NCBI RefSeq assembly: GCF_021917145.1
Contig: NC_061073.1
Location: 4,618,550 to 4,682,549 of the forward strand
Source of the DNA: Hypomesus transpacificus
Lineage: Eukaryota; Chordata; Actinopteri; Osmeriformes; Osmeridae
Direction of reading: 5' to 3'
Length of the DNA: 64,000 nucleotides
The notes beneath the pieces were generated by a model that was not told the DNA's origin, did no database searches, and was given only the letters and a program-made list of their open reading frames with translations. Position numbers and translations under genes: made by a program. Shown one piece after another: positions 46,034 through 49,000 of the stretch (position 1 is its first letter; the number at the start of each line of letters is the position of its first letter).

Positions 46034-49000
46034 ATGGACTCTTCCCTGACTGCTTCTCAGATCCGTGAGAAGTTCATCAACTTCTTCCGTCGCCATGAGC
46101 ACCAGTACGTCCACTCGTCTGCCACCATCCCTCTGGATGACCCCACTCTGCTGTTTGCCAACGCCGGCATGAACCAGGTACCAGACAACCACTCAGACAT
46201 CACTCCTTTATTCCCTCCGTCCATCTCGCTTATCACAACACGTCTTTGTTGCCGTGGATTCTTTACTGAAATGTGTGATGTTGGATACAACTGGATACTG
46301 GATGGGCCTACACATTGCTCTCACACGCTCACCCCTTCGGGCCTTTTCTCCCCAGTTCAAGCCCATCTTCCTGCCTACACACTGCCCTCACACGCTCACC
46401 CCTTCGGGCCTTTTCTCCCCAGTTCAAGCCCATCTTCCTGCCTACACATTGCTCTCACACGCTCACCCCTTCGGGCCTTTTCTCCCCAGTTCAAGCCCAT
46501 CTTCCTGCCTACACATTGCCCTCACACGCTCACCCCTTCGGGCCTTTTCTCCCCAGTTCAAGCCCATCTTCCTGCCTACACACTGCCCTCACACGCTCAC
46601 CCCTTCGGGCCTTTTCTCCCCAGTTCAAGCCCATCTTCCTGCTTACACATTGCCCTCACACGCTCACCCCTTCGGGCCTTTTCTCCCCAGTTCAAGCCCA
46701 TCTTCCTGCCTACACATTGCCCTCACACGCTCACCCCTTCGGGCCTTTTCTCCCCAGTTCAAGCCCATCTTCCTGAACACCATAGACCCCTCCCACCCTA
46801 TGGCTCGGCTGCGTCGGGCAGCAAACACTCAGAAATGCATCCGCGCCGGGGGCAAGCACAACGACCTGGACGACGTAGGGAAGGACGTCTACCACCACAC
46901 CTTCTTTGAGATGCTGGGTTCCTGGTCCTTTGGGGACTATTTCAAGGTAAGGCGGCGGGGGAATGAAGTTCACACAGAGGGAGATGTGCTGGTTCATTGT
47001 AGTTCACTGAGATGTTTCTTTTTGACCTGACCTTGGCCTGATATCTAGACTGGGTGTGTCTTTAATGGGTTGGTAAAAAACAACAACAATAAATCACTGC
47101 CCTTTTCTCATCCCATCTCCTGCAGAAACTGGCCTGTACGATGGCCCTGGAGCTGCTGACTCAGGAGCTTGGCATCCCCATTGAGCGTCTGTACGTTACC
47201 TACTTTGGAGGCCACCCTGATGCAGGCCTGGAGCCTGACCTGGAGTGCAAACAAATCTGGGTGGACTTGGGGTGAGGCTGGGTCTGGAGGGGGGAGGCTG
47301 GGTCTAGAGGGGGCAGGCTGGGTCTGGAGGGGGCAGGCTGGGTCTGGAGGTTGAAGGCTGGGTCTGGAGGGGGGAGGCTGGGTCTGGAGGGGGGGAGGCT
47401 GGGTCTGGAGGGGAAGGCTGGGTCTGGAGGGGAGGGGCTGGGTCTGGAGGGTATAGGCTGGGTCTGGAGGGGGGAGGCTGGGTCTAGAGGGGGCAGGCTG
47501 GGTCTGGAGGTTGAAGGCTGGGTCTGGAGGGGGGAGGCTGGGTCTGGAGGGGGGAGGCTGGGTCTGGAGGGGGGGAGGCTGGGTCTGGAGGGGGAGGCTG
47601 GGTCCGTCTGGCACTTTTGGGTGTCTCCTCACTGTGTGTGTGTTTGTCAGGATGGACGAGGCTCGTATCCTGCCAGGCAGCATGAAGGATAACTTCTGGG
47701 AGATGGGGGACACTGGTCCCTGCGGCCCCTGCAGTGAGATCCACTTTGACCGGATCGGGGGCCGCGACGCCTCCCACCTCGTCAATATGGATGACCCCAA
47801 TGTCCTTGAGATCTGGAACCTGGTCTTTATCCAGTTCAACAGGTAATGCACATGCTTCTACACACTTCCTAGACATACCCAGCGTCTCAGCATAAACTTA
47901 GTCTTAAGACTGCTGCAATACTGTTGCCAAGGCCTGTTGTTGTCAAGGTCTGCTACACACTAAACACTGTCCTTCTTCACTTTCTCACTACTGCACTACC
48001 ACACCGTATGTTCCATATACCCTGTCGTGTGTGTGTGTGTGTGTGTGTGTGTAGGGAGTCAGAGACAGAGCTGAAGCCTCTTCCTAAGAAGAGCATTGAC
48101 ACAGGCATGGGTCTGGAACGCCTGGTGTCGGTGCTGCAGAACAAGATGTCCAACTACGACACTGACCTCTTCGTCCCGTACTTCCAGGCCATCCAGAAGG
48201 TGAGCAACACAGCTGTCTGGGGCCTGTTGGACTTAATAAGATGGTGTCAGATTGGTAAAGCTCACTGGTAGAGCATTTGATTACGGATTGATGGTTCGCA
48301 AGTTCAAACACCCCCTGCATGTACATTTAGTCATTTAGCAGACGCTTTTTCCAGAGCGACTTACAGTAAGTACAGGGACATTTTCCCCCAAGGCAAGTAG
48401 GGTGAAGTGCCTTGCCCATGGACACAACATCATTTTGCCCGATTCCCTTACCGCTCAGCCACCTGACTCCCCATGTAGCTTTGGAGAAAACATTTAATGT
48501 TGAGAAAACATTTGATGTTAGTGAAATCCGACTTGAGGTCTGGAACTGGTGTCTGTTTTTCGTCTGCCTTGTGTAATACTTAAACGCTTAAAAAATTCTT
48601 AAGTCCAGCCGATGGAAATAAACATAACTGTCATAATTCACTTTGGTATCCCTAGTATACTTACTGACCTCTAGTGGTAGTGATGGAGGTTCTGTATGAC
48701 TGCGTTGATCTGTAGGGAACAGGCGCCAGGGCTTACACGGGGAAAGTTGGCGCCGAGGACACGGACGGCATCGACATGGCCTACCGCGTCCTGGCCGACC
48801 ACGCGCGCACCATCACCATCGCCCTGTCAGACGGAGGGCGACCCGACAACACGGGAAGAGGGTGAGACGCTCTCTCCTTCCCCGCTCTCTCGACGCTCTC
48901 GAGCTTACGGGGTGAACGTTGGCGTACATGCAGTCGTGCATGTTTTCTTTTCTCCACGTGGCTCTGTATCTGACCCCCCGTCCCCCCCCTCCCCTCCCCA

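Follow-up and report, generated by a model that had tools for sequence, protein, structure and literature searches.

Identical tandem splice sites reportedly competed in the duplicated-splice-site constructs of the 1980s (Reed and Maniatis; Kuhne; Lang and Spritz), which were built in engineered genes. NAGNAG acceptors lie 3 nt apart and share a branch point and polypyrimidine tract, and the repeated unit of CBS 844ins68 is said to hold the branch point region, tract, AG and exon start of its acceptor. For this 68-bp duplication at the CBS intron 7/exon 8 junction, PMC2630376 states that splicing strongly prefers the more distal site. De Grassi and Ciccarelli (2009) described 27 intron modifications by exon-intron boundary repeats in human segmental duplications, 66% of which also have repeat-retaining transcripts (PMC2812944), and a VNTR across an intron-exon junction of FAM20C is indicated, in a brief mention, as affecting alternative splicing (PMC5941971). 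Here we describe a repeat array across a splice acceptor of aars1, the gene for alanyl-tRNA synthetase (AlaRS), in a stretch of 64,000 nucleotides from Hypomesus transpacificus (C14:4618550-4682549), referred to as the window.

The aars1 gene model and its repeated acceptor

Our gene model covers exons 1-5 of aars1, arranged as follows.

46034..46177 (+), coding exon 1 (MDSSLTA...NAGMNQ), donor CAG/GTACCA
46178..46757 (+), intron 1, 580 nt when spliced to copy 7 of the array and 178 nt when spliced to copy 1
46758..46946 (+), coding exon 2 (189 nt, FKPIFLNT...GDYFK), donor AAG/GTAAGG
47126..47271 (+), coding exon 3
47651..47842 (+), coding exon 4
48055..48199 (+), coding exon 5

Joined at 46758, these exons encode 272 residues whose gapless alignment to human cytoplasmic AlaRS of known structure (E 3e-170) confirms both the gene and the exon 2 boundary given in the preliminary description of this DNA. 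The same alignment bears out its claim that only the last acceptor yields the conserved protein, as 46758 alone among the seven junctions gives the gapless match. Of the 272 residues scanned, 9-272 match the Pfam domain tRNA-synt_2c. The boundary of exons 1 and 2, which separates residue 48 from residue 49, lies inside this match in a stretch identical to human, so that the insertion point does not fall just before the class II core, where it had been placed. Introns 2, 3 and 4 measure 179, 379 (with a 20-bp array of its own) and 212 nt.

Tandem Repeats Finder (TRF, score threshold 50) reports an array at the intron 1/exon 2 boundary with a period of 67, 7.0 copies, 97% matches and a score of 905 (46306-46775). 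Counted from 46307, seven 67-bp units fill exactly 469 bases (46307-46775), each unit consisting of the last 49 nt of intron 1 and the first 18 nt of exon 2. The array ends 18 nt into exon 2 and thus covers the junction between intron and coding exon; with head-to-tail units in the range of about 10-100 bp, it is a minisatellite (VNTR) spanning a splice acceptor. Every copy (7/7) carries two CTCAC motifs, a pyrimidine tract, CAG and 18 bases of aars1 exon 2. The copies are listed below, the second number of each junction being the first exon base.

Copy 1, 46307..46373 (+), with its junction at 46355/46356, CTCAC motifs, tract, acceptor and 18 exon bases; splicing here would insert 134 residues in frame
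Copy 2, 46374..46440 (+), with its junction at 46422/46423; splicing here would shift the frame and reach an exon 2 stop
Copy 3, 46441..46507 (+), with its junction at 46489/46490; splicing here would shift the frame and reach an exon 2 stop
Copy 4, 46508..46574 (+), with its junction at 46556/46557, the same sequence as copy 7; splicing here would insert 67 residues in frame
Copy 5, 46575..46641 (+), with its junction at 46623/46624; splicing here would shift the frame and reach an exon 2 stop
Copy 6, 46642..46708 (+), with its junction at 46690/46691 and an extra yUnAy match, CTTAC, at -46; splicing here would shift the frame and reach an exon 2 stop
Copy 7, 46709..46775 (+), with its junction at 46757/46758, the conserved acceptor, taken as ancestral

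TRF and the comparison of copies agree that the seven tandem acceptors first described, with their junctions, are present in the assembly. The earlier wording that the unit is repeated exactly is wrong in detail and right in substance: five of the seven copies differ from copy 7 by a single base, and copies 4 and 7 do not differ at any base. With position 1 of the unit set at 46306, we find T at position 14 in copies 1 and 3, C at position 10 in copies 2 and 5, and T at position 3 in copy 6; all three variable positions are C/T and lie within the first 14. The acceptor 23-mer (20 intronic and 3 exonic bases) is identical in all seven copies, which are thus locally equivalent acceptors, as had been proposed. 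Two k-mers, the 18-mer of the exon start and a 16-mer taken from the unit, each occur seven times in the window, always on the plus strand and never on the minus strand. A search of the 437-Mb assembly (376 contigs) with 46300-46780 gives a single match, namely the window itself.

Two possible signs of selection were weighed against chance. Purifying selection on the acceptor is unsupported by the placing of the variants, given that the chance of three random sites all landing among the 50 intronic positions is 41%; the chance that they lie within a 12-bp span is 8%. As stated earlier, all three forward frames of the unit are free of stops. A stop-free unit is expected in 73% of cases under a first-order Markov model of the unit and in 30% under a mononucleotide shuffle, and with 73% expected by chance under the Markov model we reject it as a sign of coding selection.

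The frame outcome of each acceptor agrees with the arithmetic of the preliminary description. Splicing to copy 7 leaves the frame open through exon 5, as does splicing to copy 1. The in-frame inserts, of 67 codons from copy 4 and 134 codons from copy 1, fall inside the catalytic domain. Copies 2 and 5 insert 2 mod 3 and copies 3 and 6 insert 1 mod 3; the shifted frames reach stops in exon 2 that lie 508 nt (copies 2 and 5) and 375 nt (copies 3 and 6) before the exon 4/5 junction. Nonsense-mediated decay is expected for stops so far before an exon junction.

A search of the assembly with the 272 residues returned ten matches, five at the aars1 locus (83-97% identity) and five in one other gene, on C44 (50-66%), which is probably that of mitochondrial AlaRS. 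No second cytosolic-type aars1 that might cover for mis-splicing was found among these ten. In the C44 paralogue a phase-0 intron of 356 nt splits the corresponding position (NAGMNQ / FKPIFL). The exon start of this paralogue appears a single time over the 1 kb checked, and no repeats lie near the junction, TRF giving just three small repeats elsewhere in the 3.2-kb locus. Because the intron is common to both genes it appears to be old, and copy 7 is likely the ancestral boundary, to which aars1 would have added six copies.

Choice among the seven acceptors

Since the acceptor 23-mers are identical, any scoring of the sites themselves ends in a tie, and we considered what else could choose among them. 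The preliminary description had suggested that a branch point near the end of the array selects the last AG. However, CTCAC motifs, which are putative branch points, stand at -33 and -25 in all seven copies, and a further AG ends 6 nt into the exon start of every copy. The first AG after a branch point is normally used; given an AG in every repeated exon start, the branch point serving copy 7 should therefore lie within copy 7, where it is not unique. We thus reject a single branch point near the array end as the sole selector of the last site. RNA structure that hides copies 1-6 is likewise unsupported, as all seven copies are about equally open in the predicted fold of 46034-47125 (mean unpaired probability of the acceptor region 0.68-0.73). 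The array acceptor has 14 pyrimidines among the 17 positions from -20 to -4, as against 14, 10 and 8 for introns 2, 3 and 4. None of the local features tested singled out copy 7.

Copy 7 alone is followed by the remainder of exon 2 with its donor, AAG/GTAAGG, and copy 1 is set apart by its closeness to the exon 1 donor. We compared enhancer-type composition by base composition, purine runs and four purine trinucleotides. The repeat unit is 73% pyrimidine with purine runs of at most 3 nt; in exon 2, pyrimidines make up 52% and purine runs reach 9. Exons 1, 3, 4 and 5 are 47-61% pyrimidine with purine runs of 5-8, and exon 1 (61%, runs up to 6) falls between the unit and exon 2. As the unit is pyrimidine-rich and lacks long purine runs, exons extended into the array would look intron-like.

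We think it probable that a minisatellite arose here across a splice junction and that the gene tolerates it because the last acceptor has the advantage under exon definition. A local tandem duplication would have taken in the final 49 nt of intron 1 together with the opening 18 nt of exon 2, and later exchange between copies would have expanded the duplication to the present seven, an order of events that we infer. The array would have no task of its own, and splicing mainly to the last acceptor, 46758, would allow it to be tolerated. The last copy alone is joined to a full exon 2 with a near-consensus donor, the other signals being the same in all seven; under exon definition, U1 at GTAAGG and SR proteins bound to the exon would help U2AF at the nearest 3' splice site. 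The CBS precedent, a 68-bp duplication whose distal site is strongly favoured, supports this view. A counterpoint is that intron 1 would measure 178 nt without the six extra copies, and introns that short may be recognised by intron definition, which would favour copy 1, near the donor. Mixed acceptor use, which appears to be common in human repeat-driven intron modifications, also counts against exclusive use of the last site.

It is possible, though unlikely, that the array is leaky, so that a sizeable minority of transcripts uses upstream acceptors and copy number acts as a dial on AlaRS output. Copies 2, 3, 5 and 6 would then give degraded, stop-containing mRNAs, and copies 1 and 4 rare extended proteins. 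The gene is essential, and the ten assembly matches include no second aars1, both of which speak against sizeable loss; on the other hand, the acceptors are locally identical and equally accessible in the predicted fold, and the exon 2 stops, 375 or 508 nt before the exon 4/5 junction, fit the rules of nonsense-mediated decay. The human parallels point in both directions: retained-repeat transcripts are common in repeat-spanning introns (PMC2812944) and the FAM20C VNTR is indicated as affecting alternative splicing (PMC5941971), whereas CBS 844ins68, the closest natural precedent, strongly favours the distal site (PMC2630376).

We regard as distinctly improbable a heritable splicing dial tunable by copy number, in which seven complete acceptors compete in an essential gene and the number of copies sets the amount of AlaRS. 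Upstream use would lead to mRNA decay or to 67 or 134 added residues, and a copy number of 1 mod 3 would be selected if copy 1 were used.

That the array is an assembly artefact, the true locus holding one or a few copies, seems very unlikely. Tandem repeats are error-prone in assembly, and the copy number given here is that of the assembly; however, copies that are not adjacent have variants in common (1 with 3, 2 with 5) and copy 6 has one of its own, a pattern that simple duplication of one assembled unit would not give, and the locus lies inside a 17.8-Mb contig. Regular use of the first acceptor, with intron definition over the 178-nt intron picking copy 1 and AlaRS gaining 134 residues, we consider least likely: copy 1 is in frame in the seven-copy allele and open through exon 5, and of introns 2-4 two are short (179 and 212 nt, against 379 nt for the other), but the insert would part residues 48 and 49 of the catalytic domain in a stretch identical to human, any change in copy number that is not a multiple of three would break the gene, and a copy number of 1 mod 3, such as seven, arises by chance one time in three.

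Minisatellites and other features of the window

Minisatellites (period at least 15, at least 2.5 copies, TRF entropy at least 1.5) account for 7.5% of the window, against 1.6% of a single contiguous 200-kb sample of its contig, making the window about five times richer than that sample. Four arrays in the sample with units of at least 25 bp carry an acceptor-like or donor-like motif, two of them belonging to one 91-bp family. Two of the nine splice junctions of aars1 exons 1-5 lie inside arrays, for which a naive, post hoc calculation that ignores selection, based on 15 hand-picked arrays making up 7.2% of the window (period at least 15, with simple-repeat-like rows and short few-copy arrays left out), gives a chance of 0.49 for at least one junction and 0.13 for at least two. 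Other features observed in the window are as follows.

26871-27125, tandem array of a 91-bp unit that is also found at L017:9319-9572 and L021:8829-9172, with 91-93% matches within each array
30775-30962, array of a 30-bp unit, 6.3 copies, 99% matches, repeating a strong donor-like GATGAG/GTAAGC and TTTCAG
36650-37480, transglutaminase-like exons (Transglut_N, 24.5 bits, just below the Pfam cut-off of 27)
37696-38337, minisatellite of ten 64-bp units, after the transglutaminase-like exons
41154-41213, 60 consecutive C, which may be a weak point of the assembly
43205-44035 (-), open reading frame encoding an RNase PH domain and placed head to head with aars1
47269-47604, 20-bp minisatellite of 16.8 copies, which takes in the last 3 nt of aars1 exon 3 and the donor of that exon

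The exon 3 donor, GTGAGG, is present in the first 20-bp unit of the last array and absent from its later units. At 30775-30962, a frame from an ATG at 30767 is open through six donor-like sites. Membership of this mirror case in a transglutaminase gene is unsupported; a first exon that looks transglutaminase-like from its motif was seen by eye near 36650. The 91-bp unit probably represents a dispersed repeat family, as its copies at L017 and L021 are, by eye, the reverse complement of those in the window. The RNase PH reading frame is presumably EXOSC6-like, and the stretch between it and aars1 may be a two-way promoter.

Relation to known systems

The array amounts to a natural version of a classic splicing experiment, with seven acceptors of the same local sequence competing in one intron. 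Site strength is constant across the copies, and position and exon context alone differ, so that junction use here would show how far exon context alone sets the choice of 3' splice site in a vertebrate gene with short introns. Alleles that differ in copy number, if they exist, would form a dose series, and use of the last site alone would show how strongly exon definition buffers genes against junction-spanning repeats. Titles and the starts of abstracts, in a search mostly of papers outside subscription, yielded no prior report of a repeat in fish aars1.

Several described classes differ from this locus. The aars1 acceptors resemble NAGNAG acceptors as neighbouring alternative 3' splice sites at one exon, but they lie 67 nt apart, each with its own complete module, and the other AG of the unit is 6 nt downstream of the acceptor AG; the array is thus no NAGNAG tandem acceptor. 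Tandem exon duplication with mutually exclusive exons does not describe it either, as the only GT of the unit overlaps the acceptor AG itself. Nor does intron gain by tandem genomic duplication, as the unit has no separate donor and the intron is old, being present in the C44 paralogue too. Compared with the engineered constructs of the 1980s, the aars1 array is natural and has seven copies.

The likeness to CBS 844ins68 is that of a junction-copying duplication of nearly equal size (68 and 67 bp), and the aars1 unit, as in a CBS-like acceptor duplication, holds branch-point-like motifs (-33 and -25), tract, AG and exon start in all seven copies. The CBS duplication is a human polymorphism of two copies in which splicing was measured, and favouring of its distal site leads to normal mRNA (PMC2630376), whereas the aars1 array has seven copies and is known from genomic sequence alone. 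FAM20C offers another repeat array across a splice junction (PMC5941971). The minisatellites of human duplicated genes likewise expanded across exon-intron boundaries, but these are cases in recent paralogues with 30-bp units present four times on average (PMC2812944), whereas the aars1 array lies in an essential gene and carries a full acceptor module in each copy. The array is therefore of a kind already known, and with seven complete acceptors packed into a single intron of an essential gene it is more extreme than any case compared.
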